Shown in pieces: positions 1-24,418 of a stretch of DNA of 64,000 nt. The notes beneath the pieces are model-generated. The model searched no databases. It saw nothing but the letters and a program-made list of their open reading frames with translations, and was not told the DNA's origin. Origin of the DNA: Nitrospirota bacterium. Its GTDB lineage: Bacteria; Nitrospirota; Nitrospiria; 2-01-FULL-66-17. The stretch covers positions 186,001 to 250,000 of the forward strand of contig JBFLXB010000001.1 in the NCBI GenBank assembly GCA_040757335.1, written 5' to 3'. How positions within the stretch are numbered: the first letter of the stretch is position 1; every line of letters begins with the position of its first letter. Both the position numbers and the translations under genes were made by a program.

Positions 1-1956
1 GGCTATTCTCCGACCAGGTATACGCGGACCCCGAGGCCGTGATCACGGTCCCGAAGTGAGGGTTGGCGATGACGTTGACCCACGGCAGCGGCGTTTCGCG
101 ATCTCCTTCCAGGACGATGACATAGTCCCGTCCATTGTCGGCGAATCCGCCGAGCCCGTTGGCGAGGGTGAGGGCAGGGATTGCGACGGGCGGTTCGGGA
201 CGGGTCGGGATTGGCTCCTGAGCGCTGGGGGGTTTGAAGGCGTCCCGCCATTGCGGTTCGGGATAGGGTCGATCCAGTTGGGTGGCCAGCCCCCCGCGGT
301 CGCCGCTGACGATCGCCCGGGCCACGCCGGCGAGCAGAAGACGCTCGGCCTCGCCCATGCCGTCGCCACGCAGGAGGTAGATGCCGCCCGGACGGTGTTT
401 CCACGCGCCCCACGGCCCGCTTTCCAGGAGCGCGACGAGCGCGGCGTGCATTTCGTTCAAGTAACTGACCGGGTGTTCGTTGACGATGACGACATCCGCG
501 CTCAGTCCCTTCATGCGCCAATACTCCTGGGCCTGCAAGACTTGGCGCACGAGGGGCAGGTCGTGTTCCTTGACCACGCGTACCAACAGAATCGGTAGAT
601 CGCCCGAGATCCCGTGGGCCCAGAGCCCGGCCTGGCCCAGGACGTTGCGGGCCAACACCTCCGGGGCCGCGCGCAGCGAGCCGTCGGTGTATAACACGCG
701 GGAGGCCAAGCGATCGAAGAGTTGGGCTTCGTCGCTGGAGATGCCCAGGTGCCGCAGGCGGATCTGCGCGTGGGTGAACGCGAGCGCAAAGGTCCGGCCT
801 TGCGCGCTGGGGTCGTGGTACTTCTGGGCCAGGACCAGGGCGGCGTCGCGGGTTCCGGCCATCCCGGTGGCGAACGAGAGGCGCACGAAGCCGCCGGGGG
901 CGAGGCGGATACGCGTCCTGAGGCTCACGATGGGATCGAGCACCGCGCCGGTGGTGCCGGATAAGGCTCGTCCATCGAGCGCGATCGGGTCGTCGGGGCC
1001 GCGACCGCGTCCGAGGAAGCGAGCCCGATCGCTCTCCCATTCGACCGGTCCCTGCATGCGTGCTTCCACGCCGAGGACGTGCACCGCCCACGCGCCTGAT
1101 TCGTCGCCGGCGCGCGCGCGGCGTGCGCACAGCAGGGCGGCGCTCTCGGGGAGGTATTCGGTCTCCACGAACAGGTTGCTGAAGGTCGGGTGAACCAGAT
1201 CATCGGCGGGCGGGGCCAACACGATTTCCGCATAGCTCGTCACTTCGAGTTCGCGCGGGCGGTCGCTGCGATTGGTGACCGAGAGGCGGCGAACCTCGAC
1301 GTCGTCCTCCGCCGATACCGCGATCTCGATCTGCGTCTCGATCTCGTCGTCGCGGCGGTGGAACACGGCTTTCTCCGCCAAGAAGGTGGCGAGGTAGTTG
1401 TCGGGCGCGCCGCCCATCGGATGAGCCGTCGCGGACCACACCGACCCGCTGCGAACGTCGCGCAGGTAGAGGAACTGGCTTCCCGGGTCGCGGGTCGGGT
1501 CCTCGCGATACCGCGTGACCGCGCGGCCGCGGCAGAGGCTGGCGCCCCCTCCCGCGTTGGTGATGATCACGGTGTAATTGCCATTGGAGAGAAAGTGCGC
1601 GTGAGGGTACAACGTGTGAGGCGACCGGAACCGGCGCACTGCCTGGGGCGGCACCGGGGCCGCGACCCGCGTTTCCTCGGCCGGTCGAGGTTGGGTGATC
1701 GGCAGGTGGCGCGGCACGCGCTCCTGGAGCAGCAGCTCGGTGGCCTGCACCCGCGGGTCGGCGTGGAATCGCTCCACCATCGGATACCCCAGGAGGGTAT
1801 TGGCCAGGGCGACCAGGGTCATGCCCTGGTGGTGCGCGAGGTAGGCCTGCACCACCACGCCGTGCGAGCCGTGCGGTCGGGGACCTGGTCGGGGATCGGC
1901 CTCGTCGGTCCGGCGGGTGGTGAAGTCGATGGCGTCGTAGTAGCCGTACCGTCCAG
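1..1956 (-). pseudogene. Continuation of the cyclic glucan synthase gene after the frameshift (GH94 phosphorylase part), partial at window edge
   Basis: Reading the minus strand from about 1956 to position 1 in the shifted frame gives one uninterrupted stretch of about 650 codons. It starts GRYGYYDAIDF-like and continues through VVVQAYLAHHQGMTLVALAN, PHAHFLSNGNYTVIITNAGG and LRDVRSGSVWSATAHPMG to the window end. These are the motifs of the GH94-type C-terminal region of NdvB proteins. It has no stop and no start of its own and is cut by the window edge. Compared with the usual G-L-x-G-R-Y-G family sequence, about four bases seem to be missing near 1946-1956. Either the gene is inactivated or the assembly has an indel error. 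Confidence 0.75.
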
Positions 1957-4900
1957 CCCGCGTTCGGAGAGGTGTTGCAGGTTCTGGATCGCCTCCTTCG
2001 CGTCCACCATGACGGCCAGGGCGGTGGCGTACGGCGCGACCACCAGATCGTCCCCGAGCCCCCGCTTTAACCCCAATCCGGGCACGCCGAATGCTTTGTA
2101 TTGATAGGTGCCGTGCGCGTCGACGAGGTTGAACGCGGACTCCGAGATGCCCCACGGCACGCCCTGTTGGCTCGCGTAGTCGATCTGGCAGCGCACCGCC
2201 ATCCGGCACGACTGATCCAGCAGCGTATCGGGATACCGTCGCATCATCAGGAGCGGCATCAGGTATTCGAACAACGTGGCGCTCCAGGAAAGCAACGTGG
2301 GGGCTCCATCCACGCTGGTGACGAGGCGCCCGAGGTGAAACCAGTGGGTTTCGGGCACATCGCCTTTGGCGATCGCGATGAAACTGGCCAGCCGGGCTTC
2401 CGAGGCGAGCAAATCATAATAGGAGAGATCCAGGCGGCCGGGCCCGTCCGCGTCGGCGAGACGGTAGCCGATCGAGAAGATTTTTCGTTGGGCGTCGTAC
2501 AAGGAGCCGAATTTCATCCCGTCGGCGCACGCCAGCGCGCGATCTGCGAGCTCGTTCACACGCGCGGCGGCCAGCTTGCTAAGGTGGCACCGCCCTTCAA
2601 CCAGCTCAGGGCGAGCGCCATCCTGAGCAGGGTCGCCGGACATGGCACGGGCCACGGCGTGGGCCCAGTAGGCCACTTCGCGTTCCGCGGGAGAGGCGTC
2701 GGGTCCGATGTCGAGTCGGTCGATGGCTGCGCGGAACGAGGGGACCAACCGGTCGAGTTGCTCGAGTTGTTGGTCCGCCTCCTCGGGCCCAGTCAGGAGC
2801 CGCTGCACGGTTTGCGTCTCCGTCACGAGTGGGGGCAACCGGTCGCCCAGTGGCGGCGGAGCGCCCGCGACCGCCTCCAATGAGAGTCGGAGGATCTCGG
2901 TGGTGTCGGCCAGGCCGGCCACGATCTGCTTGGGTGTTTGCGGGGTTCGGGCCAATTGGCGCAGGCCCCCGGCCAAGGTCAGGAGCGCCCCGGCGAGGTT
3001 GCCGCTATCCACGGTTGAGACATACCGGGGGGAGAGGGGAGTCAGGCTGCGGGTATCGTACCAATTCAGGAGATGCCCTTCCCATCGCTCGAGTCCTTCC
3101 AGGGTGGTCATGGTCAGGTCGATCCGATCCAGCAACTCAGGGGTGCGGATGTAGCCGAGGTCGTGGGCAGCGAGGGTCGATAGCAGGCCCAGCCCGATAT
3201 TGGTGGGCGATGTCCGGTGAGCCACCGTGGGCCCCGGCGTTTCCTGGAGGTTGTCGGCGGGCAGCCCGTGATCCTCGGCGCCCATGAACGTGTCGAAGTA
3301 CCGCCACGTGCGGCGCGCGATGAGCCGCAGGAACAGCTGTTCTTCCTGGGCGAGGTGCACTCGTCGCGGCGCGACCAGCCGGCTCAACCAATACGCGACG
3401 AACGGCGCCGCGGTCCATGAGACCAGCAGCGGCGCGGCCACCAGCATGGAGGAGGGACGCAACGCGGTGATCGCGGCCGCGATCCCCGCGGCGATGACGG
3501 GGCTGGCGAGCATCGCCCCGGCGAAGGACAAGACCCGGCTCCGGCGCGCAAGACCGGCCGCCCGGGCCGCGACCGCGGCTGCGGTTTCCCATTGTAGGAG
3601 CCGTCGCTGGGTCATGACCAGTCGGACGAGGGTGAGCGCGATGGCGTGCAGCATCTCGTAGGTGTGGTAGGCGAGCAGCGTGACCTGAAGCAGCACTTGC
3701 GCGGCCGCGGTCTCCACGTCGTCCCAGCTTTCGCGCAGGAAGACGCCCCATTGCTGTTGGTTCCGGGGGCCGGCGATGGTTCGGAGCAGCAGGGGGTAGA
3801 GGCCGAAGGCGAGGGCGGCCAGAACCCCCGTGGTCCAGACCGCGGGATGTCCCGGCAGCCGGGTCCAGGCCAGGGCGAGGAAGGCGACCGTGGCTGGGGC
3901 GACCAGGCTGCGGCGAAGATTATCGAAGATCTTCCAGCGCGAAATCAGTGGCAGCCGGTTGCGCTCCAGGCCTTGGCGGGTGGGCACGACCGGAAAGAGC
4001 CAGAAGAGGATCTGCCAGTCGCCACGCACCCACCGATGCTGGCGCCGGGCGTGGGTGAGCACGCTCGACGGATAGTCGTCCACCACTTCGACGTCGGTTA
4101 CCAGCGCGGCGCGCGCGTAGAGGCCCTCGAACAGGTCGTGCGAGAGCAGGGCGTTCTCGGGCACCCTCCCGTCCAGCGCGGCCATAAACGTGTCCACGTC
4201 GTAGAGGCCCTTGCCCGCGAACAACCCCTCTCCGAAGAGGTCCTGATAGGTATTCGACACCGCAGTGGTATACGGATCAACCCCGGTATGGCCCGCATAC
4301 ACCCTGGCGAATCGTGATCCCGCCGCGCTCGCCATGGTGACGCTGACGCGAGGTTGCAGGATGCCGTAGCCCTCGGTGACGCGTTGCAGGCCGGGGTCGA
4401 AGAACGGACGATTGAGCGGGTGCGCGATGACGCCGATCAGTTTTTTCGCGGCGTCGCGCGGGAGGCGGGTGTCGCTATCCAAGGTGAGGCAATACCGGAT
4501 GCTCGGCAGGACGCTCAAGTCGCCGACCTGGATCCGAAAACCGGTGTCGGTTGCGCCGCGCAACAGCCGGTTGAACTCTTCGATCTTGCCGCGCTTGCGT
4601 TCCCAACCCATCCACGAACCCTCTCCCGGGTTCCATCGCCTCGCGCGATGAAACAAGAAGAAGCGATCGGTGCGTCCCTCGCCGTGCCGCGCGTTGAGGG
4701 CGTTGATTCCGGCGCGTGCGGCGGCGAGAATACTGTCATCCTCCGGCATCTCCGCGGCAGGCGCATCGGCAAAGTCGCTGAGGATCGCGAAGTGGATGCG
4801 CGGATCGAGGTTGCCGAGAGCCTGGACCTCCAGGTGCTCCATCAGCTCGTTCACTCCGGTCACGCTGGTCAGGAGCGTGGGCACGATCACCATGGTCCGC

Positions 4901-6345
4901 GCGTGCTCCGGAACGCTGCCGGAGCAGTCGAGGCGGGGGAGCCGCCGTGGCGGCACGACCCACGCCGCCAGCCGCTGCACAAGCGCGATCGCGAACTCGC
5001 TGGCGGGGAACACGAGCAGTCCCGCTGCACACAGGTGCATCCAGGTTGCCGCGCGGGACAGGCCGGCGTACGACGCAGCCCAGGCGAGCAGCAGCCCCGT
5101 GATGAGTCCGATGGAGCCGAGGTAGATCTCGGTGGCATAGAAGGAGACGACGCGTCGGAGGCGCTCGGCCAGGCGTGGAAGGTACTCCACGTCGGTCTCG
5201 AGCTCGGGGCGACCCTTGCCGATCAGGTGGTATCCGACGTGAGCGGCTCGCCCGGAGGGGTCCAGCTCGGCCGCCTGGCGGGCGCTTTCCACGGTACGAA
5301 GCGCGACGCGGAGCTGGGCTTCGCCGGTCGGCTCGGCCAGGTCCTCGACCGCGTGTCGGTAGAGATCGCGACTCAGAAAATCCATGGTGCCGTACACCCC
5401 GGCGGGGTCGCGCTGGAGCACCTGCTCGATGAGGCTGACGTGTTCGACGTACTCGGGCCAGTCCAGCGTCGAACAGAGGCGAAGGCTGGTGATGGCGTTG
5501 GCAATCGCGACCTGGGCGGTGGCTTGCCTGGCGTGTTCGGTCCGGATGATGTCTTCGGCGGTCGTCCCGTGATCGCGGAGCGTCGCCTCGACCGCCGCCC
5601 GAAGCGGTGAAACCACGGGCCCGTACTCGCGGATTCGTTGCAGCAGTTGGACGACAAATGCGGTGTCGAGGACCACGGGCAGCGGTCGCAGGACCGAATA
5701 GTCGTGATCCGCATCGATCTCAGACAGATAGCGGTCGGCCGCGCCGCGAGCGCTTCGGGCCTCGAGCATATCCTCTGCGAGGCGTCGGATATTTTCGATG
5801 AGCGCCAGCTTGAGCATGCTGGGCCACGCCCAGAGCTCGCCGATCGTCAGGGGGGCAACCGTCTGGTACGCGACCACGAAGCGGGTCAAGCGGTGGCGAT
5901 CCAACCGGCTGTCACTCTGCCGAATGAGCTCCAACGCCATCGCGTAGATGCGCGCCGTTCCGAACCGCTCCCGCGAGGCGAGTTTCGGGAGCTGGAGATA
6001 GTACTCGCGCGGGAGGGTGTGGAGGATGCCGCGGATCTCGGCTTCGACGAGATGGAAGTTGTCCAGCAGCCACTCTGCCGCGGGCGACATGACCTCGCCG
6101 CGGTGGACGTCGTCGGCCATGATCCGGTAGGCGTCGCGCAACACCCGCGCGTTGTCTTCGAGTTGGGGAAAGAAGCGACGGGCCCGCCGGCGGGGATTGC
6201 GAGCGAGCGTAAAACTGGCGGCGAGCGCCTTGGCACGCTCTTCGAGCCGTTCGATACTGAGGATTTCGCCGCGCAGGGGTTGGGCGGTTTTGACGTGCCT
6301 CCCGCCCCTGATGAGTCGGTACAGCGCGGCGAGGCGGTCACTCAT
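1819..6345 (-). CDS. Cyclic beta-1,2-glucan synthase-like protein (NdvB/GT84 family), N-terminal 1508 codons before a frameshift
   Basis: Large polytopic glycan synthase. The N-terminal ~400 residues are helical. Membrane segments lie near residues 400-460 and 830-1000. Between them is an inverting glycosyltransferase core with a DSD motif (LDSDTRLP, about residue 620) and the RRQHRW (QxxRW type) motif near 768. A glucoamylase-like domain follows (about 1010-1480; e.g. NIGLGLLSTLAAHDLGY, YYDLLASEARLASFIAIAKG). Family members are around 2800 residues and end in a GH94 phosphorylase domain. Here the frame leaves the family sequence at about 1950, after LSERGLDG, and ends in low-complexity Thr/Pro sequence at 1819. 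The true continuation is the next entry. A 33-bp palindromic repeat also lies inside this part. The family makes cyclic periplasmic glucans; product specificity here is inferred. Confidence 0.85.
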   Translation of the reverse strand: MSDRLAALYRLIRGGRHVKTAQPLRGEILSIERLEERAKALAASFTLARNPRRRARRFFPQLEDNARVLRDAYRIMADDVHRGEVMSPAAEWLLDNFHLVEAEIRGILHTLPREYYLQLPKLASRERFGTARIYAMALELIRQSDSRLDRHRLTRFVVAYQTVAPLTIGELWAWPSMLKLALIENIRRLAEDMLEARSARGAADRYLSEIDADHDYSVLRPLPVVLDTAFVVQLLQRIREYGPVVSPLRAAVEATLRDHGTTAEDIIRTEHARQATAQVAIANAITSLRLCSTLDWPEYVEHVSLIEQVLQRDPAGVYGTMDFLSRDLYRHAVEDLAEPTGEAQLRVALRTVESARQAAELDPSGRAAHVGYHLIGKGRPELETDVEYLPRLAERLRRVVSFYATEIYLGSIGLITGLLLAWAASYAGLSRAATWMHLCAAGLLVFPASEFAIALVQRLAAWVVPPRRLPRLDCSGSVPEHARTMVIVPTLLTSVTGVNELMEHLEVQALGNLDPRIHFAILSDFADAPAAEMPEDDSILAAARAGINALNARHGEGRTDRFFLFHRARRWNPGEGSWMGWERKRGKIEEFNRLLRGATDTGFRIQVGDLSVLPSIRYCLTLDSDTRLPRDAAKKLIGVIAHPLNRPFFDPGLQRVTEGYGILQPRVSVTMASAAGSRFARVYAGHTGVDPYTTAVSNTYQDLFGEGLFAGKGLYDVDTFMAALDGRVPENALLSHDLFEGLYARAALVTDVEVVDDYPSSVLTHARRQHRWVRGDWQILFWLFPVVPTRQGLERNRLPLISRWKIFDNLRRSLVAPATVAFLALAWTRLPGHPAVWTTGVLAALAFGLYPLLLRTIAGPRNQQQWGVFLRESWDDVETAAAQVLLQVTLLAYHTYEMLHAIALTLVRLVMTQRRLLQWETAAAVAARAAGLARRSRVLSFAGAMLASPVIAAGIAAAITALRPSSMLVAAPLLVSWTAAPFVAYWLSRLVAPRRVHLAQEEQLFLRLIARRTWRYFDTFMGAEDHGLPADNLQETPGPTVAHRTSPTNIGLGLLSTLAAHDLGYIRTPELLDRIDLTMTTLEGLERWEGHLLNWYDTRSLTPLSPRYVSTVDSGNLAGALLTLAGGLRQLARTPQTPKQIVAGLADTTEILRLSLEAVAGAPPPLGDRLPPLVTETQTVQRLLTGPEEADQQLEQLDRLVPSFRAAIDRLDIGPDASPAEREVAYWAHAVARAMSGDPAQDGARPELVEGRCHLSKLAAARVNELADRALACADGMKFGSLYDAQRKIFSIGYRLADADGPGRLDLSYYDLLASEARLASFIAIAKGDVPETHWFHLGRLVTSVDGAPTLLSWSATLFEYLMPLLMMRRYPDTLLDQSCRMAVRCQIDYASQQGVPWGISESAFNLVDAHGTYQYKAFGVPGLGLKRGLGDDLVVAPYATALAVMVDAKEAIQNLQHLSERGLDGTATTTPSTSPPAGPTRPIPDQVPDRTARTAWWCRPTSRTTRA
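2604..2628. repeat. Short palindromic repeat inserted in the glucan synthase ORF
   Basis: Arms GCTCAGG (2604-2610) and CCTGAGC (2622-2628) form a 7-bp stem with an 11-base loop. On the minus strand the surrounding codons read ARPELVEGRCH. This peptide is the typical read-through product of a widespread short repeat with a TTCGACAGGCTCAGG-like core. It interrupts an otherwise family-like stretch (between AMSGDPAQ and LSKLAAARVNEL) without breaking the frame. Confidence 0.55.
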
Positions 6346-6571: not shown

Positions 6572-7084
6572 ATGGACGAGAAATATAAAGAAGCGGAACG
6601 AAGCTCCTTCAGTCGCCAGTTGATCCTCGGTCGTCCCGTGAGCCGCGCGGCGATCGACGTGATGGAGGTGCTGGACGGCTGGGGATATATCACGGCGGGG
6701 ATCAGTTTTCTGGCGCTGGGCATGGTGGTGTTCGTCCATGCCTGGTATGCCTTCGCGATCACGGTGGGTTCCACGGTTGTTCCTGCCGTGCTGGGCCTTC
6801 TCCATGACCTCTTGCTGGTAATCATCCTGTTAGAGCTTTTTCGTACCATCATTAATTTCCTTAAGACCAAAGCCATCACATTGGAACCGTTTCTGTACAT
6901 CTGCATCATCGCGTCCACCCGGCGCATCCTCACGACGGGGGCCCAGATTGCCAACGTGGAGGACCTGACCGATCAACTCTTCCATCGGTATCTGCTCGAT
7001 GTGGGGGCGAATGTGTTGGTGATCGTCGCGCTGGTCATCGCGTTATATGTGGTTCGCATATCTCCGCAGCGGAGTATGACCTAG
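6572..7084 (+). CDS. psiE: PsiE-family membrane protein (phosphate-starvation-inducible E-like)
   Basis: A 170-residue integral membrane protein with four hydrophobic segments (about 45-65, 72-92, 105-120 and 138-158), matching the usual PsiE length and layout. The conserved central part reads LHDLLLVIILLELFRTIINF, followed by EPFLYICIIASTRRIL, a PsiE hallmark. PsiE is induced by phosphate starvation in E. coli but its biochemical role is unknown. The gene stands alone, divergent from the glucan synthase. The only upstream signal is a promoter that nearly abuts the ATG, so the mRNA may be leaderless. Confidence 0.85.
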   Translation: MDEKYKEAERSSFSRQLILGRPVSRAAIDVMEVLDGWGYITAGISFLALGMVVFVHAWYAFAITVGSTVVPAVLGLLHDLLLVIILLELFRTIINFLKTKAITLEPFLYICIIASTRRILTTGAQIANVEDLTDQLFHRYLLDVGANVLVIVALVIALYVVRISPQRSMT

Positions 7085-7279: not shown

Positions 7280-7372
7280 ATTCTCCAGTCTCCGCCGCTT
7301 CTACGCCGAAGTCTCTGTTGGTCGTTGCTTGTAACGGGCGGCCACCGTCCGTTGATCAGATAGAGCTGATCC

Positions 7373-7387
7373 GGCTCAGGGAGAGAA
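7373..7387. repeat. Direct repeat copy 1, upstream of a small ORF
   Basis: GGCTCAGGGAGAGAA occurs exactly here and at 7814-7828. Similarity extends to about 23 bp with three mismatches. Both copies lie 20-35 nt upstream of a start codon. Confidence 0.6.
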
Positions 7388-7408
7388 CCGTCCGACAAGG
7401 AGTAGCAC

Positions 7409-7558
7409 GTGTGGTGGACGAGCGCTGTGACTCTGATGATGGTGTGGCTGCTCGGGGTGGTGAGCCACTACACGATGGGCGGGCTGATTCATGTCCTGTT
7501 GATGGTGGCCTTGATCACCGCGGCGGTGAGTCTTATGCGGAGCCGGAGACTCGCGTAA
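7409..7558 (+). CDS. Lmo0937-like small membrane protein (49 aa)
   Basis: GTG start with AGGAG at 7398-7402, ending at TAA. The protein has two hydrophobic stretches around a central motif SHYTMGGLIHVLLMVALI. This matches the layout of the Lmo0937 family of tiny membrane proteins (hydrophobic segment, T/S-YTMGG-IH, second hydrophobic segment, short charged tail). Members are often stress-associated and have no known biochemical role. First gene of a close series of small ORFs. The family assignment rests on remembered motif similarity. Confidence 0.7.
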   Translation: MWWTSAVTLMMVWLLGVVSHYTMGGLIHVLLMVALITAAVSLMRSRRLA

Positions 7559-7600
7559 CCAACGGAAGATGACATCTTTACTGCTCGAATAGGAGGCGCC

Positions 7601-7762
7601 ATGGACTATAGCAAAGCGGTCTTTAAGCGCGAAGCATGGGGCACCAAACCGTGTAAGCATCCCACGAAGGAGTCGGAATATTTCATGGGCAAGAACACGG
7701 GGAAGACCGTCTGTACGATGTGCGGAAAACTCTTTCTTTCCGGGCTGCCCGTGAATCCCTGA
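7601..7762 (+). CDS. Small Cys-rich protein (53 aa), possible metal-binding, unknown function
   Basis: The ATG has a strong Shine-Dalgarno (AGGAGG, 7591-7596). The protein is soluble and basic, with one Cys-Lys-His (PCKHP, residues 17-21) and a CTMCGK motif (residues 38-43). Together these could ligate one zinc or similar ion, as in a small zinc ribbon. No family recognised. It lies 42 nt after the Lmo0937-like gene and about 97 nt before the next small ORF. Confidence 0.65.
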   Translation: MDYSKAVFKREAWGTKPCKHPTKESEYFMGKNTGKTVCTMCGKLFLSGLPVNP

Positions 7763-7813
7763 CAAAATAGAGACCGGTCGACGTAGCGACCGTGTTCTCC
7801 AGTCTTCCAATCA

Positions 7814-7828
7814 GGCTCAGGGAGAGAA
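7814..7828. repeat. Direct repeat copy 2, upstream of a small ORF
   Basis: Second exact copy of GGCTCAGGGAGAGAA, within an intergenic gap of 97 nt and about 30 nt before the next ATG. Its repeated placement suggests a regulatory or RNA-level role, or a leftover of local duplication. Confidence 0.6.
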
Positions 7829-7859
7829 ACGTTATCCCGTGAACAGAGAGGTGACCGAG

Positions 7860-8012
7860 ATGTATCAAGCGACGAGTGGTATCGTCGGATTGTTCGCAGT
7901 GCTAAGCCTGACATTGGGTCTGGCCATCTGGGCGTCGTGGACCAAGGGGCGTATGAAGAAGACAAACCAGAGTAGCCATCCCGTCGTTCCATCGGGAGGA
8001 GGAGTCCCATGA
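7860..8012 (+). CDS. Small single-pass membrane protein (50 aa), unknown
   Basis: MYQATSGIVGLFAVLSLTLG begins a protein with one membrane segment (about residues 6-26), then a basic KGRMKK stretch and a short Ser/Pro/Gly tail. This predicts a cytoplasmic C-terminus by the positive-inside rule. An in-frame GTG at 7839 is an alternative start. The stop overlaps the ATG of the next ORF (ATGA, 8009-8012), which implies translational coupling. No family recognised. Confidence 0.55.
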   Translation: MYQATSGIVGLFAVLSLTLGLAIWASWTKGRMKKTNQSSHPVVPSGGGVP

Positions 8013-8152
8013 CACCGGAAGAGCAAATTTCGAAGATGACCAAAGCGATCAATCAGGCCATCAAGGTGATGAACGACCGGTTCGGATCAACGGAAGGGGA
8101 CGTGGCCAGGGCGATTGCGGACCTGAAGGCGTCGCTGCAAACTTCAGCGTGA
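8009..8152 (+). CDS. Small helical soluble protein (47 aa), unknown
   Basis: Preceded by GGGAGGAGGAG (7994-8004) and starting inside the stop of the previous ORF. It is charged, has no Cys and is predicted to be all helical (MTPEEQISKMTKAINQAIKV onward). Its stop overlaps the GTG of the methyltransferase gene (GTGA, 8149-8152). The double overlap makes it very likely that this short frame is translated. It could be a small adaptor of its neighbours; this is inference. Confidence 0.65.
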   Translation: MTPEEQISKMTKAINQAIKVMNDRFGSTEGDVARAIADLKASLQTSA

Positions 8153-8988
8153 ACACGGGTCCGCACGATGGGGCGCTACGCTGGCCGCTCCCCATACACG
8201 ACCATTGGTCCACGCCGTTTGCCGAGGCGTTGCTGCACCATCTGGATCTCTTCACCGGGGCCACGGTTTTGGATGTGGCGTGCGGCCACGGCACGCCGGC
8301 GTTCTATCTGGCGGAGCAGGTCGGCCCCACCGGACAAGTGCTCGGCATCGACCTGAGCGAACAGAAGATCGCGCGCGCTCGAGAGGCTCAGAAGCAGGAT
8401 CTCCCGTGGCTTCGCTTCGCGTGCTTGGACATGCGCTCGCTGCCTTCACGCGTGCCGATCGTCGATCGGATCACCGGCAACCTCGCGGTCCTGTTCTTTC
8501 GTCCGCGCCGGCTCGAAACGGTCCGTGGCTTGTTCGACCACCTGAAGCCGGGCGGCCAACTCGTCCTGACGTTCCCGTCCCGCGGGACGTTTGCGCTGCT
8601 TTGGCGGAGAATCGATCGGGAACTCGCCGCTCGCGGGTTGGACGCTGAGCGCCATTATCTCGCGGAGTACGTGACGGAGCGGCCCTCCGCGGACGAGGGG
8701 CGCGCCTGGCTCGACGCGCTGGGATTCGAGCGTATCGAGGTGGCCGAGTGGCCCCTGGAGATCCCCACTGGTCCCGGCCAGTCGTTTCTTCGCCATCCGA
8801 TCCTCCGAGGCGGCTTCCTCGACGACGTGTACGATTGTTTCGACGATCGGGGCGTTGCCGAGGAGGTTATGAAGCGAGTGTCTTACGACATCCCCAGTTT
8901 CACGCCCTTGATCGCTCAGCGGTGCGTGCTGTCGGGATGGAAGAAGGCCGGGGCGGGACTCGGGCTCGCTGAAGCCGCAATCTGCTGA
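8149..8988 (+). CDS. Class I SAM-dependent methyltransferase
   Basis: 279 residues of the Methyltransf_11/UbiE type. Motif I VLDVACGHGTPAFYLAEQVG (about residues 41-60), the acidic SAM-ribose residue in VLGIDLSEQKIARAR, motif II near LACLDM/NLAVLFF and motif III LKPGGQLVLTFPS. The C-terminal half is less conserved and may choose the substrate, which cannot be told from sequence. The GTG start is fixed by the overlap with the preceding 47-aa ORF. It is the last gene of the micro-operon, so it may act on a lipid or small molecule linked to the small membrane proteins (inference). Confidence 0.85.
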   Translation: MNTGPHDGALRWPLPIHDHWSTPFAEALLHHLDLFTGATVLDVACGHGTPAFYLAEQVGPTGQVLGIDLSEQKIARAREAQKQDLPWLRFACLDMRSLPSRVPIVDRITGNLAVLFFRPRRLETVRGLFDHLKPGGQLVLTFPSRGTFALLWRRIDRELAARGLDAERHYLAEYVTERPSADEGRAWLDALGFERIEVAEWPLEIPTGPGQSFLRHPILRGGFLDDVYDCFDDRGVAEEVMKRVSYDIPSFTPLIAQRCVLSGWKKAGAGLGLAEAAIC

Positions 8989-10869: not shown

Positions 10870-10945
10870 GGAGGACTGCAGATGACGACGACCAATCCGT
10901 GGAGAACCGGGGCGTAAAAGCAACCACGGACACGGAGGCAGCGTG

Positions 10946-13351
10946 ATGGCAACTGATCCGGTCTGCGGCATGACGGTTGACGAGGCGTCGGCCGCGGGAA
11001 CAGCGATGTTCGAGGGGCGGGCGTTCTTCTTTTGCTCTATTCACTGCTTGCGGGCGTTTGAGGCCAACCCCAAGCCCTTTGTCGCGTCCAGCTCCATTCA
11101 TGCCATGCCGGAGGGTCTCCCCCCAGCCAAGACGACCAAGGCCGCCAAGGAGATGGCCAAGGACCCGATCTGCGGGATGGTGGTGGAGAAGGCCACCGCA
11201 CTCAAGACCGAGCGTGCCGGGCGGGCGTACTACTTTTGCAGCGCGGGGTGCCAGCGCACATTCGAATCGCCCGAACAGGAACTCAAGTCCATGCGCACCC
11301 GCGTCACGATCGCGCTCACCGGCGTGCTGGCCTTGGCCGTGCTGCGCGCCGCCGCGTTCCTGGCGCTGGCCACCGGCGCCACGATCGTCACGTGGGCGCC
11401 GATCCCGCAACTGCCGTGGTTTACGTGGGGCGTGTGGCTGTTCCTGTTGGTCACGCCGGTGCAGTTCATCGGCGGGTGGTCGTTCTACGTGGGGTCGTGG
11501 ACCGCGATCCGCACGCGCACCATCAACATGGACTTCTTGATCGCGCTCGGCACCACGGTCGCGTACCTCTACAGCGTCGCGGTGATCTTCTTCCCGTGGG
11601 TGCTGCCGGTGAAGATCGAAGAGCGGGATGTGTATTTTGAAGTCTCGGCCGTGATTATCGCGTTTGTGCTGCTCGGCAAATACATGGAGGAGATGATCAA
11701 AAAACGCTCGTCGGCCGCGGTGCGCAAGCTCTTGGATCTCAAACCCGCCACCGCGCGCGTGATCCGCGAAGGCGCCGAGATGGAGGTGCCGGCCGAGAGC
11801 GTGATGGTCGGCGAGGTCGTGGTGGTGCGGCCCGGGGAGAAGATCGCGACCGATGGCGCGGTGATCGAGGGTGCGTCCTCGGTGGACGAATCCATGTTGA
11901 CCGGCGAATCCATGCCCGTGGAGAAAACGATGGGCAGCCAAGTCATCGGCGGCACGCTCAACCGCGCGGGCCTGCTGCGCTTCAAAGCCACGCGGGTCGG
12001 CGCAGAGACGGCCCTGGCGCAGATCATCAAGATGGTGGAAGAGGCGCAGGCCAGCAGCGCGCCCATCCAGCGCCTGGCTGATCAGGTGACCGGCTATTTT
12101 GTCCCGGCCGTGGTGGGTGTGGCGGTGCTGGCGTTCGCGGGTTGGTGGCTGGCCGGCAATTTCCCGCAAGCCCTGCTCGCGTTCATCGCGGTGCTGATCA
12201 TCGCGTGTCCGTGTGCGTTGGGCATCGCCACGCCCGCTGCGCTGATGGTGGGCGTGGGCAAGGGCGCGGAGGGCGGCATCCTGATCCGCGGGGGCGAGGT
12301 CTTGGAGCGCGCGCAAAAACTCACCGCGGTCGTCTTCGACAAGACCGGGACCCTGACGCGGGGGGAACCAAACGTCACCGACGTGGTGCCGCTCGCTGGC
12401 CTGACGGAGACAGAAGTCCTGCGCCTGGCTGCGGCGGTGGAGGTCGGCTCGGAGCATCCGCTAGGGGAGGCCATTGTGCGGGCGGCGCAACACCGGAAAT
12501 TGGACCTGCCCAAGGTGAGCGACTTCGAGGCGATTCCCGGTCACGGGATTCGGGGGCGAATCGCAAATCCCCCCTCCGCCCCCCTTTTTCAAAGGGGGGA
12601 ACCACATCACCTGTCACAGCCGTTCCTCCCCCCTTTGGAAAAGGGGGGAGGAGGGGATTTGGTTTTGCTCGGCAACCGACGGTTGTTTCGGGCCGAAGGG
12701 ATCGATCCGTCGCCTGCAGAATCCACGATGACCCGCCTGGAATCCGAAGGCAAGACCGCGATGCTGGTGGGCGCAGACCGCGCGCTGGTCGGCATTGTTG
12801 CCGTGGCGGACACGCTCAAACCCGAGGCGAGGGAAGCGGTCGGCGCGCTGCGCCAGGAAGGCGTCGAGGTCATCCTCCTCACCGGCGACAACCAGCGCAC
12901 GGCCCACGCCATTGCGCGCGAGGTCGGCATCGAACACGTGATTGCCGAGGTTTTGCCGGCGGACAAGGCCCGGGTCGTCCAGGACCTGCAGAAGCAGCGA
13001 AAGATCGTGGCCATGGTGGGCGACGGGGTGAACGACGCGCCCGCGCTCGCCGCCGCGGACATTGGCATCGCGATCGGATCCGGTTCCGATGTCGCCAAGG
13101 AAACCGGCGGCATCATCCTTGTCAGAAACGACGTGCGCGACGTGGTGGCGGGCATCCGTCTGTCCCGCGCGACCATGCGCAAGATCAAACAGAATCTGTT
13201 CTGGGCGTTCATTTACAACAGCGTGGGCATTCCGATCGCGGCGCTCGGGTTTTTGAATCCGATTGTCGCTGCGGCGGCCATGGCGCTGAGCTCCTTGTCC
13301 GTGATCGTGAACTCGGCGCTGTTGAAACGACAGAAGTTGGCGGTGGCGTGA
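10946..13351 (+). CDS. copA: Copper/silver-exporting P1B-type ATPase with two N-terminal YHS domains
   Basis: About 801 residues. YHS domain 1 (DPVCGM, residues 4-9, with FFFCSIHC) and YHS domain 2 (DPICGM, residues 73-78, with YYFCSAGC) replace the usual HMA domains. The core has the actuator TGES, the CPC metal site (residues 421-423), phosphorylation D465 in DKTGTLT, ATP-binding GHGI and hinge GDGVND. CPC predicts Cu(I)/Ag(I) efflux to the periplasm. Residues ~541-572, between GHGI and NRRLF, come from a 96-bp palindromic repeat inserted in frame. ATG 10946 was chosen (GGAGG at 10934-10938); a GTG lies one codon earlier. Confidence 0.93.
12565..12660. repeat. 96-bp palindromic repeat inserted in frame in the P1B ATPase gene
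   Basis: The ends AAATCCCC and GGGGATTT are exact complements. Each half also contains its own C6-T/A-G6 hairpin (around 12580-12599 and 12629-12647). The two halves together form an imperfect inverted repeat of about 35 bp. It codes for Pro/Gly-rich peptides ([18 protein letters not shown]) that are foreign to the ATPase family. The length is a multiple of three, so the frame is kept. Confidence 0.8.
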
Positions 13352-16388: not shown

Positions 16389-17573
16389 ATGCCTCGCCAC
16401 ATCGTGGTCACACCATTATCTCGGCTGCCGATCGAGCAACTGGCGGTCGAATTGTGCGAACACAAGGGCGTCGGACACCCGGACACCATCGCGGACACGG
16501 TTTGCGAGGCCGCGTCGCGCGAACTCTCCTTGGCGTATCGCAAGACCTACGGCCACATTCTGCATCACAACCTTGACAAAGGCTTGGTTGTGGCAGGGCG
16601 AAGCGAGCCGCGGTTTGGCGGCGGGATCTGCCTCGAGCCGATCAAGGTCATTGTCTGCGGCCGAGCGACCAACCAGAGCTCGGCGCTCGATGTCCGCGGG
16701 CTGGTCGAAGCGGCTGCGCAGCGCGCGCTGGAGCGGAATCTGCGCTGCGGCTTGGGTCATTTCAAAGTCCTGACCGAGATCCGCGAGGGCAGCGCGGACC
16801 TCAGGGAGGTGTTTGCGCGCGGCGCGCGGGCGCCCCTCGCGAATGACACCTCGTTCGGCTGCGGGTACGCACCGTACTCCAGGTTGGAGCAAGTCGTGCT
16901 CACCCTCTCGCGCTTGTTGAAGGCGCCGGAATTTAGGTCGGCGTTTCCGGCTGCCGGGGATGATTTCAAGATCCTGGGGCACCGGGTCAACGGGGACCTG
17001 CACGCCACGATCGCGCTGGCCTTCGTGGACCGCCACGTGGAGAGCGTGTCCGCGTACTTTGCGACCAAGCGCGCGATCCGCGACTACCTTGCCGACCAGG
17101 TCGGCGTGCCGGTGGCGATTCGCATCAACACGCTGGACGACCTCGCGGCGACGAACGAGCAGGGCGTGTACCTCACCGTGACCGGACTGAGCGCGGAGAT
17201 GGGAGATGACGGTCAGGTGGGGCGCGGCAACCGGGTCAATGGGCTGATCACGCCGAACCGGAGTATGTCGCTGGAGGCTGCGGCGGGGAAGAATCCGACC
17301 TCGCACGTCGGCAAAGTCTACAACGTCCTGGCCATGCTCATGGCCAAGGATCTCTACGAACGCCTCGATGGGGTGGACGAAGTCAGCATCACGCTCCTGT
17401 CCGCCATTGGTGAGCCCACGGACCAACCCCAGGTTGCGGCCATCGAGATCGGCTCGCGACACGGGGTCCCTTCGGACGTGAACCGCAAGGCCGAGGCAGC
17501 GGCTGATGAGTGGTTGGCAAGAATCGAAACAATCACGGATCTGATCCTTGGTGAGCGTGTCACATTGTATTGA
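16389..17573 (+). CDS. mat: Archaeal-type S-adenosylmethionine synthetase
   Basis: 394 residues, the usual length of the archaeal MAT family (distinct from bacterial MetK). N-terminal LCEHKGVGHPDTIADTVCEA, then LDKGLVVAGRSEPRFGGG, NDTSFGCGYAP, EMGDDGQVGRGNRVNGLITP and NPTSHVGKVYNVLA are family blocks. It makes SAM from ATP and methionine. ATG 16389 has AGGAG at 16378-16382. Its place between an ICMT-like methyltransferase and the CopA oxidase suggests it serves local methylation rather than being the main housekeeping enzyme (inference). A decayed copy of its 5' end lies at 21596. Confidence 0.93.
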   Translation: MPRHIVVTPLSRLPIEQLAVELCEHKGVGHPDTIADTVCEAASRELSLAYRKTYGHILHHNLDKGLVVAGRSEPRFGGGICLEPIKVIVCGRATNQSSALDVRGLVEAAAQRALERNLRCGLGHFKVLTEIREGSADLREVFARGARAPLANDTSFGCGYAPYSRLEQVVLTLSRLLKAPEFRSAFPAAGDDFKILGHRVNGDLHATIALAFVDRHVESVSAYFATKRAIRDYLADQVGVPVAIRINTLDDLAATNEQGVYLTVTGLSAEMGDDGQVGRGNRVNGLITPNRSMSLEAAAGKNPTSHVGKVYNVLAMLMAKDLYERLDGVDEVSITLLSAIGEPTDQPQVAAIEIGSRHGVPSDVNRKAEAAADEWLARIETITDLILGERVTLY

Positions 17574-17605
17574 GAGACGGGGAGCACATGGCGAAGGAGG
17601 TGCGA

Positions 17606-19369
17606 ATGAAGGGATTCTTGTTTATAGGGCTGGCGGTATGGGCCGCAACGGCTTCGGCTTGGGCCGGCGAGTACAACCTGGTGATCGACCAAACCACGGT
17701 CGACATCACGGGCCGAGAGCGCACGGCCGTGACGATCAACGGGGCGGTGCCGGGGCCGGCGCTGCGGTGGCGCGAGGGCGAGGAGGTGACCCTCCACGTC
17801 ACCAACCGGCTCGACGAGCCCACGTCCATCCACTGGCACGGCGTGATCGTCCCAAATTCCATGGACGGCGTGCCCGGCATCAGTTTCGAGCACATCCATC
17901 CCGGCGGGACGTTTACGTACCGCTTCACGGTTAAGCAGAGCGGCACCTATTGGTATCACAGCCACTCCGGACTGCAAGAGCAGTCCGGGATGTATAGCCC
18001 TCTGCTCATCGACCCTGCGAAACCTGAACCGTTTCGATACGACCGGGAGTACGTGGTGATGCTCTCGGACTGGACCGATGAGCATCCCGATCGGGTCCTG
18101 GCCAAGCTCAAGAAACAGAGCGGGTATTACAACTTCCACAAGCCAACGGTTGTGGACTTCTTCCGCGACATCGGGAAGAAGGGGTGGCGCGAGACGCTGT
18201 CGGACCGCCTGGCCTGGGGCCGCATGCGCATGGACCCGACTGACATCGCGGACGTCACCGGCTACACGTACACGTTCCTGATCAACGGCCAGCCGCCCGA
18301 GGCCAACTGGACGGCGCTGTTCAAGCCGGGCGAGCGAGTCCGATTGCGGTTCATCAACGCCGCGTCGATGACGTACTTCGACCTGCGCATCCCCGGGTTG
18401 AAGATGGAGGTGGTGCAGGCCGACGGGCAGGACACCGAACCGGTGGCGGTGGACGAGTTCCGCATCGCGGTCTCCGAGACCTACGACGTGATCGTGGCGC
18501 CGCAGGAAGATCGGGCCTACACGATCTTTGCCGAGGCCATGGACCGCAGCGGCTACGCCCGCGGCACGCTCGCGCCTCGTACCGGCATCGAGGCCCCGAT
18601 CCCGGCGATGCGGCCGCGGCCAGTCCGCACCATGGCGGACATGGGCATGGCTGAGGGCGCGCACGGGATGGCGTCGAAGAGCCCGGCGCAGGAGAAAGAG
18701 ACTACCATGCCGGAGATGGATCATGACGGACCGGGAGACATGGGCGCCATGCCGGGGATGGACCACGGAGCCATGAACCAGGAACCCGGACACGCCATGC
18801 CGGGCATGGCCGAGAGTACCGAACCGCCCACGGTTATGCACGGTCCCGACACCCACGGGAAGGGCAATTCCATGGTCGCGATGATGCCGAGAAGCCGGCT
18901 TGCCGAGCCGGGCGCGGGGTTGGAGCACACGGGTACCCGTGTGCTGGCTTACACCGATCTGCGGGCCCGCGAGCCTGGCTACGATCGCCGACCACCCGAG
19001 CGGGAGATCGAGCTGCATCTCACCGGCAATATGGATCGCTACATTTGGGGGTTCAACGGGAAGAAGTATTCGGAATCCGAGCCGATCCCGATGCGGTACG
19101 GCGAGCGGTTGCGCGTCGTTCTGGTCAACGACACCATGATGGAGCACCCCTTGCACCTGCACGGGATGTGGATGGAGCTCGAGAACGGCAATGGTGAGCA
19201 CAACCCGCGGAAATTCACCATCAACGTCAAGCCGGGCGAGCGGTTGTCGTTCCTCATGACCGCCGACGCCCTGGGCGCGTGGCCGTTCCATTGTCACTTG
19301 GGCTACCACATGGCCGCGGGCATGATGGCGCACGCGGTGGTTTCCGAGCACGGCGCGGAGGCGCACTGA
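17606..19369 (+). CDS. copA: CopA multicopper oxidase (copper resistance)
   Basis: 587 residues. Signal peptide MKGFLFIGLAVWAATASAWA. Copper ligands are intact: HWHG (H76, H78), HSHSG (H118, H120), HPLHLHG (H514-H519) and HCHLGYHMAAGM (from H562). A Met/His-rich stretch (about residues 340-420, with repeats such as MDHDGPGDMGAMPGMDHG) is the CopA/PcoA copper-binding insert. Exported enzyme that oxidises Cu(I) in the periplasm. AAGGAGG at 17594-17600 decides the ATG at 17606 over one at 17588. Its stop overlaps the copB start (ATGA). Confidence 0.95.
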   Translation: MKGFLFIGLAVWAATASAWAGEYNLVIDQTTVDITGRERTAVTINGAVPGPALRWREGEEVTLHVTNRLDEPTSIHWHGVIVPNSMDGVPGISFEHIHPGGTFTYRFTVKQSGTYWYHSHSGLQEQSGMYSPLLIDPAKPEPFRYDREYVVMLSDWTDEHPDRVLAKLKKQSGYYNFHKPTVVDFFRDIGKKGWRETLSDRLAWGRMRMDPTDIADVTGYTYTFLINGQPPEANWTALFKPGERVRLRFINAASMTYFDLRIPGLKMEVVQADGQDTEPVAVDEFRIAVSETYDVIVAPQEDRAYTIFAEAMDRSGYARGTLAPRTGIEAPIPAMRPRPVRTMADMGMAEGAHGMASKSPAQEKETTMPEMDHDGPGDMGAMPGMDHGAMNQEPGHAMPGMAESTEPPTVMHGPDTHGKGNSMVAMMPRSRLAEPGAGLEHTGTRVLAYTDLRAREPGYDRRPPEREIELHLTGNMDRYIWGFNGKKYSESEPIPMRYGERLRVVLVNDTMMEHPLHLHGMWMELENGNGEHNPRKFTINVKPGERLSFLMTADALGAWPFHCHLGYHMAAGMMAHAVVSEHGAEAH

Positions 19370-21955: not shown

Positions 21956-24418
21956 ATGAAGACGAGTGTCATCGAAGTCGGCGGCATGCTGTCGGCCTTG
22001 AGCGCCCGTGGCGTGGAGAAGCGGCTTTCGCGGCTGCCGGGCGTGCAGCGCGTCGAGGTGAATTACGTGGCCGGCAGCGCGACCGTGACCTACGACGAGA
22101 CCGTGACCGACCTCAAAGCAATCAAAGCCGCGGTGCACGCGTGCGGCTACCACTGTAGCGGCGAGCGGCTGCCGAAGCACGTGTGCGTGCCCGAGGATCC
22201 GCCAGGCGCAGCCGTGGCGCTGCCCGCGGGCGCCGCGGCCGCCCATGTCGGTCATGCGGAACACGCTGCGCACGAGACTCGGCCCGTTGAAGGTGTCGTG
22301 CGCCCGACCGCCGCCGAGCACCGCGAGCACGCCGCACCGGCCGCCCACGCCGATGCCATGGCCCACGAGATGGGCCATGGCGCGGGCATGGATTTGCAGA
22401 CCATGGCGCGGGACATGCGCAATCGCTTCTGGGTCGCGCTCGTCTTTACCGTGCCGGTGTTTCTGTATTCCCCCATGGGTGGCATGTTCGCCCCGCCCGC
22501 GCCGCCGTTCGATCTTCCGCTCAATACGTGGCTGTTCCTGCTCGCGAGCGTTGCCGTGCTGTACCCCGGCTGGCCGTTTCTGGTCGCGGCCTGGCGCGCG
22601 CTCAAAAACGGCGTGCTCAACATGGCGGTGCTGGTGGTGCTCAGCGTGGGCACCGGGTATCTGTTCAGCGTGGGGGCCACCTTTTTCTTCGAAGGTGCGC
22701 AGTTCTACGAAGCCGTGTCGGTGCTGCTCGTGTTCATCCTGCTCGGGCACTGGCTGGAGATGCGCGCCCGCGCCGGCGCGTCGGCGGCGATCCGCGCGCT
22801 GCTCGATCTGGCTCCGCCCATGGCCACGGTGATCCGCAATGGGCGCGAGGTCGAAGTGCCGACCGCCGAGGTCCTCGTAGGCGATCTGGTCGTGATCCGT
22901 CCCGGCAACAAGATCCCGGTGGACGGCGAGGTGCTCGAGGGCGAGTCCCAAGTGGACGAGTCCATGCTCACCGGCGAGTCCATGCCGGTGGGCAAGAAGC
23001 CCGGCGCTACGGTGATCGGCGCGACCATCAACAAGAGCGGCAGCTTCCGGTATCGCGCCACCAAGGTCGGGGCCGACACCGCGCTGGCGCAGATCGTGAA
23101 GCTTGTGCAGGAGGCGCAGAACTCCAAGGCCCCGGCGCAACTGCTCGCGGACCGCGCTTCGCAGTGGCTGGTGATGATTGCCGTGGTGATCGGGTTGCTC
23201 ACCTTTTCCGTCTGGTTCTGGTGGATCGGCCAGCCGGTGCTGTTCGCCCTCACCTTGACGATCACGGTCTTCGTGATCGCCTGCCCGGACGCGCTCGGAC
23301 TCGCCACGCCCATGGCCGTCATGGTCGGCACGGGTTTGGGGGCGACGAACGGGATTCTCTTCAAGAACGCCGCGTCGCTCGAGGGGGCGACCAAACTCGA
23401 TATCATCGTGTTCGATAAGACCGGTACGCTCACCGTGGGTCAGCCTGCGGTGGTGGAGGTGGTCGCGGCTTCCGGCACGACGCAGGAGGTGGTGCTGGCA
23501 ACGGCTGCCGCGGTGGAGCAAGGCACGGATCATCCGCTCGCCCAGGCCATTCTCCGCCGCGCCGCCGGGCTCGCCGTCGAGAAACCGGTAGGGTTTTCTG
23601 TCATCGAGGGCAAGGGCGCTCACGCTGAAGTCGGCGGCGAGACCGTGTTTTTGGGCAACCGTCGGCTCATGGATGAGCAACGCATGGACATGGCCGGACT
23701 CCAGGAGAAAGCCTCGGAGCTTCAGGGCGCGGGACGAACCGTGGTGCACGTCACCCGCGCAGGTCGGGTCATCGGGTTGATCGCGATCGCCGACGCGGTG
23801 CGCCAGACATCGTCCGACACGGTGAAGGCGCTCAAAGCGCGCGGAGTACAGGTCGCGATGCTCACCGGCGACAATCGTGGCACGGCAGAGCGGATTGCGG
23901 CGGAGCTCCACCTGGATGTCGTGTTGGCCGACGTCCTGCCGGGCCAGAAGGCGGCCAAGATCAAGGAACTCCAGGCCCAGGGCAAGAAGGTCGGCATGGT
24001 CGGGGACGGCATCAATGACGCGCCGGCGCTGACGCAGGCGGACGTGGGCTTTGCCATCGGTACAGGTACCGACGTGGCCATGGAGAGCGCGGACGTGGTG
24101 CTCATGAAGAGCGATCCCTTCGACGTGGTGGGCGCCATCACGCTGTCCCGCGTGACCCTGCGCAAGATGCATCAAAACCTCTGGTGGGCGGTGGCCTACA
24201 ACGTCGTCGCATTTCCCGTCGCGGCGGGCGTGTTCTATCCCTTCGTTATCAGCCCCGAGGTGGCGGCGCTCGCCATGTCCGGCAGCTCCGCGCTGGTGGC
24301 GGTCAACGCCCTGCTGCTCAAGCGCACGCGGCTGGCCGGCATTCATCGGGTGCAAGCCGCCTTGGCGGACAACATTTCCGGGTTTCTCGAAGGGACGCCG
24401 CGAAACCGCGTGGCGTGA
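21956..24418 (+). CDS. P1B-type heavy-metal ATPase with CPD motif, His-rich N-terminus and degenerate HMA domain
   Basis: 820 residues. The N-terminal 70 residues keep the HMA fold pattern ([21 protein letters not shown]) but have [11 protein letters not shown] in place of GMTCxxC, so the metal-binding Cys pair is lost. A His-rich linker follows (residues ~95-150). The core has TGES, the transmembrane motif C443-P-D ([11 protein letters not shown]), D487 in DKTGTLT, an HP motif and GDGIND. His-rich N-termini are typical of CopB-like P1B-3 pumps, whose motif is CPH; CPD is a less common variant. The transported ion (Cu, Ag or another) cannot be fixed from sequence. Confidence 0.9.

Follow-up and report, generated by a model that had tools for sequence, protein, structure and literature searches.

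The described genes closest to the locus reported here are of two kinds. The first are general-stress small-protein genes (CsbD-like and Lmo0937; RpoS- or sigma-B-dependent), whose products are small and often membrane proteins. For example, Lmo0937 in Listeria is encoded by a sigma-B-dependent gene (PMC7690807, PMC2813243). The second encode small-molecule class I methyltransferases (UbiE, ArsM, BioC and the trans-aconitate and juvenile-hormone-acid methyltransferases), which the enzyme at our locus matches best by profile and by fold. A literature search on a five-gene system with such a methyltransferase found nothing specific.

The locus lies in a stretch of 64,000 nucleotides (the window), part of a Nitrospirota genome of 3.56 Mb in 61 contigs. 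Its features are as follows.

6572..7084, plus strand: PsiE-family membrane protein (PF06146, 37.0 bits against a cut-off of 23.9), outside the putative tight operon
7369..7391, plus strand: 23-nt direct repeat, copy 1, 17 nt before ORF1
7409..7558, plus strand: ORF1, GTG start, 49 aa, DUF5670/Lmo0937-family membrane protein
7601..7762, plus strand: ORF2, ATG start, 53 aa, uncatalogued small protein with a CxH...CxxCG pattern
7810..7832, plus strand: 23-nt direct repeat, copy 2, 27 nt before the ATG of ORF3
7860..8012, plus strand: ORF3, ATG start, 50 aa, orphan one-segment membrane protein (predicted)
8009..8152, plus strand: ORF4, ATG start, 47 aa, conserved microprotein, predicted helical hairpin
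8149..8988, plus strand: methyltransferase, GTG start, 279 aa, class I SAM-dependent, with its own C-terminal region

Layout and surroundings of the locus

An earlier note on this DNA had described four small ORFs of 49, 53, 50 and 47 codons, each with a good Shine-Dalgarno, followed by a class I methyltransferase and overlapping at the last two junctions. That description stands: the ORFs are where it placed them, with the right starts, a purine-rich Shine-Dalgarno precedes each of the four, ORF3 and ORF4 overlap in ATGA, and ORF4 and the methyltransferase overlap in GTGA. The protein types that it assigned also held up. The distances between ORF1 and ORF2 (42 nt) and between ORF2 and ORF3 (97 nt) are larger. 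ORF3 has an alternative GTG start at 7839, which would give 57 aa.

The two copies of the 23-nt repeat are 91% identical to each other, and their exact 13-mer core occurs just twice in the whole genome, both times at this locus, and the idea of a genome-wide regulatory motif was rejected on that ground. The two copies could belong to a common leader or promoter, or stem from duplication of a short local stretch. Promoter-like matches in the region are in no excess over chance, the terminator-like matches present do not fix where transcripts start or end, and no credible member of a known RNA family was found there. A plasmid or phage origin was rejected, as there is no close DNA match on plasmids and ORF3 and ORF4 are absent from plasmids. 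A search of a collection of genome contigs for related loci returned generic methyltransferases only.

Elsewhere in the window, two ORFs (10943-13351 and 21956-24418) resemble heavy-metal P-type ATPases and another (17570-19369) resembles a multicopper oxidase. These putative assignments, made by looking at the sequence, likely indicate a copper or metal resistance region. Upstream of the locus, on the minus strand (1819-6345), is a 1508-aa ORF with the look of a cyclic beta-glucan synthase.

The small proteins and the methyltransferase

ORF1 scores 41.5 bits against NF033488 (cut-off 30) and 38.8 bits against PF18919 (cut-off 23.5), and the matches cover positions 2-42 and 1-42, respectively, of the 43 in the models. 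With both Pfam and NCBIfam above curated cut-offs, ORF1 reads as a member of DUF5670/Lmo0937 and as a real gene, beyond chance. DUF5670 is present in 36 of the 296 genomes of our phylum sample.

In this sample, 12 other genomes hold a relative of ORF2 (a weak one in three of them), and its homologues span several phyla and keep a W, CxH and CxxCG. We take ORF2, on these conserved residues, to be a real gene, beyond chance. The zinc-ribbon-type CxH...CxxC residues are conserved in the close homologues, and the pattern looks zinc-binding. ORF2 matches no family in Pfam, NCBIfam or PADLOC, and in PHROG it has weak matches of unknown function only. Relatives occur on plasmid pG of Xanthomonas (L167, 1399-1500) and on a Streptomyces plasmid (L168, 2501-2641); the gene tables of these plasmids list no gene at either site. 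There is a weak match in a Gordonia phage, and a search of viral contigs with ORF2 gave no match.

ORF4 has homologues in 49 of the 296 genomes, at 60-82% identity. Its dN/dS is 0.11 against the homologue in family-mate G002 and mostly 0.1-0.3 against the others, and a Shine-Dalgarno precedes most of 40 homologues. Such values and the retained Shine-Dalgarno argue that ORF4 is a real gene under strong purifying selection. The AlphaFold2 model (mean pLDDT 76) has two helices, at residues 3-25 and 29-46. Every match of ORF4 in Pfam is sub-threshold, on which ground the named families were rejected, and NCBIfam, PADLOC and PHROG likewise hold no catalogued or named family for it. We also rejected the idea that ORF4 is part of an RRM protein, since those matches are weak and to one RRM helix only.

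The methyltransferase scores 59.5 bits against PF13649 (cut-off 27). The glycine-rich motif I, DxAxGxG, is invariant across the alignment of its family, which places the enzyme among the class I SAM-dependent methyltransferases, and homologues begin at the same position, which supports the GTG start. Homologues are present in 77 of the 296 genomes; that of G002 is 76% identical and the others 54-70%. Its scores are far under every curated equivalog cut-off, which excludes ArsM (51.3 against 263 bits), UbiE (39.8 against 216) and BioC (42.5 against 184.95). Mad2 of the MADS defence system was also rejected, because the match is confined to positions 278-428 of the 492 in the model, a SAM-binding part that is shared; PADLOC gave no other hit among the five proteins. 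The best fold matches of the structure model are small-molecule methyltransferases, for example trans-aconitate and juvenile-hormone-acid methyltransferases. These matches are generic only, since the mean pLDDT of the model is just 63. The substrate is probably a small molecule. On the enzyme tree, the branch leading to the window's enzyme measures 0.38 and that of its family-mate 0.053, which may reflect faster evolution or a relaxed constraint.

ORF4 and the methyltransferase in related genomes

We scanned 31 loci for ORF4 within about 1.5 kb upstream of the enzyme on the same strand. It was found in 11, namely in this genome, in G002 and in genus g7, where all nine genomes have it. The 11 paired loci form two groups on the enzyme tree, and the same-strand pairing thus occurs in more than one lineage. 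It may descend from a single ancestral pair, with later losses.

The surroundings of the pair differ. All nine g7 loci have small genes between ORF4 and the enzyme, c12 and c29 together in four (c12 in L010, L014, L015 and L019; c29 across L010-L032) and c29 alone in five. These are two more uncatalogued small-protein families, and c12 also lies 3' of ORF4 in several further genomes. In 14 loci the place before the enzyme is taken by a member of the c29/c40 family, and in part of genus g3 the genes upstream of the enzyme are c40 and weak CsbD-like ones, the similarity to CsbD being under the cut-off. Six loci, with examples in part of g3, have a fatty-acid desaturase gene (PF00487) arranged tail to tail with that of the enzyme; it is absent from the window and most other loci. 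RRM genes are near the enzyme in many loci. Other g3 genomes encode, about 43 nt upstream of ORF4, a hydrophobic protein of some 55 aa. Tiny membrane genes therefore recur near ORF4, and they are of differing families. The window's association of PsiE with ORF4 has parallels: G029 has a PsiE gene 5' to a relative of ORF4, both on one strand, and in G204 a PsiE gene is found close to another such relative (L121 8991-9809 and 7229-7477; L122).

The account that we prefer, tentatively and at somewhat less than an even chance, is that ORF3, ORF4 and the methyltransferase are a micro-operon for stress or membrane adaptation, beside separately conserved stress genes, in which ORF4 is not an obligate subunit of the enzyme. 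The three genes would be the tight unit and share transcription; ORF1, ORF2 and the PsiE gene would be neighbouring stress-type genes, sharing the transcript or not. ORF4 would be a small, soluble helical hairpin produced with the enzyme under the same condition, most likely self-associating or binding another stress protein and not a required enzyme subunit. The enzyme would use SAM to methylate a small molecule, perhaps the carboxylate of a fatty acid or another compound linked to lipids, and this methylation would serve membrane or cold adaptation. The sigma-B dependence of the ORF1 family in Listeria, the PsiE gene upstream, and the weak CsbD-like, RRM and desaturase genes that relatives carry nearby lend the stress idea indirect support.

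Chance could instead have gathered unrelated small genes here, with ORF4 and the enzyme linked by inheritance only and ORF3 spurious. We consider this rather unlikely. No homologue of ORF3 was found, G002 lacks it and has a different frame before its ORF4, and its codon score is poor, similar to those of wrong, non-coding frames. The ATGA overlap is weak evidence. It is nearly automatic, because the ORF4 family begins MT (ATGAC or GTGAC in homologues) and any open frame in register ends there; in six relatives, an unrelated open frame of at least 35 codons ends at the same TGA of ORF4. The high variability of the neighbourhoods also fits with chance. However, of 165 spurious ORFs only 1.2% reach the hydrophobicity of the segment in ORF3 (KD19 maximum 2.16), and mononucleotide shuffling gives a p of about 0.02 for an open frame as long as ORF3. 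In addition, chance does not readily give the same-strand pairing of ORF4 with the enzyme in two clades amid differing surroundings. ORF3 is probably a real gene, and it may go untranslated.

Alternatively, ORF4 could serve the enzyme as an accessory subunit or a regulator, its hairpin docking on the enzyme and controlling activity or substrate delivery; the two proteins could meet even where their genes are apart. The pairing in two clades and the GTGA overlap in the window are consistent with this, as is the presence of the enzyme in 43 of the 49 genomes with ORF4. However, 34 of the 77 genomes with the enzyme have no detected ORF4, six with ORF4 have no enzyme, and the genes are unlinked in most genomes that carry both. 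Shared ancestry accounts for part of the co-occurrence, the overlap is not conserved (in G002 about 135 nt separate the two genes), and in other genomes ORF4 sits with different small genes. We judge a subunit role unlikely.

The earlier note had proposed one membrane-associated complex of all five products, which the order and spacing of the genes here and the two membrane proteins among the products might suggest; it is very improbable, as the five-gene order, whose recurrence it had proposed checking, was seen at no relative locus inspected, so a conserved five-gene operon is rejected, 30 DUF5670 loci searched for relatives of PsiE, ORF2, ORF3, ORF4 and the methyltransferase held ORF1 relatives only, no ORF2 relative adjoins this methyltransferase family at the loci inspected, and ORF4 and the enzyme are often apart. 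Of the homology and synteny that it had named as a check, homologues exist for three of the four small ORFs (ORF3 being the orphan) and synteny with the methyltransferase for ORF4 only. In G283 and G112, ORF2 seemed to be linked to a methyltransferase, and this link was set aside, since the methyltransferase of these genomes is related only distantly (the G112 copy has a very long branch in the enzyme tree) and another frame intervenes.

Returning to the micro-operon that we favor, the recurring pairing offers one concrete partner for ORF4 to test, and if lipids are what the enzyme modifies, membrane adaptation in these bacteria would gain a further component. The useful outcome is two uncatalogued small-protein families, ORF2 and ORF4. 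Both are conserved, outside Pfam and NCBIfam and with no named match in PHROG or PADLOC, and thus are easily missed in annotation. The strong purifying selection on ORF4 provides a testable handle on the roles of tiny proteins in a poorly studied bacterial class. We speculate, as a doubtful proposition, that ORF4 is the founding member of a microprotein family, so far uncharacterised, in this class, and acts as a mobile adaptor or regulator with lineage-specific partners that include unnamed small-molecule methyltransferases, and that it and ORF2 are two families missed by the libraries.

Comparison with described systems

The likeness to general-stress small-protein genes lies in the company that ORF1, ORF4 and the enzyme keep, both here and in relatives. 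The CsbD similarity is sub-threshold and ORF4 matches no named stress family. The likeness of ORF1 to the Lmo0937/DUF5670 family is closer. In addition to passing both cut-offs, ORF1 agrees with it in length and in hydrophobic character, with no sequence difference that would set it apart. It sits near an unrelated methyltransferase, whereas its relatives do not.

Similarly, the enzyme shares with the small-molecule class I methyltransferases the SAM-binding domain, with VLDVACGHG in the region of motif I, and the presence of a C-terminal part. Unlike the named enzymes, it has conserved sequence of its own (RITGNLSVMFFRP and GGFLDDAYECF), which marks it as belonging to a distinct, unnamed methyltransferase group.
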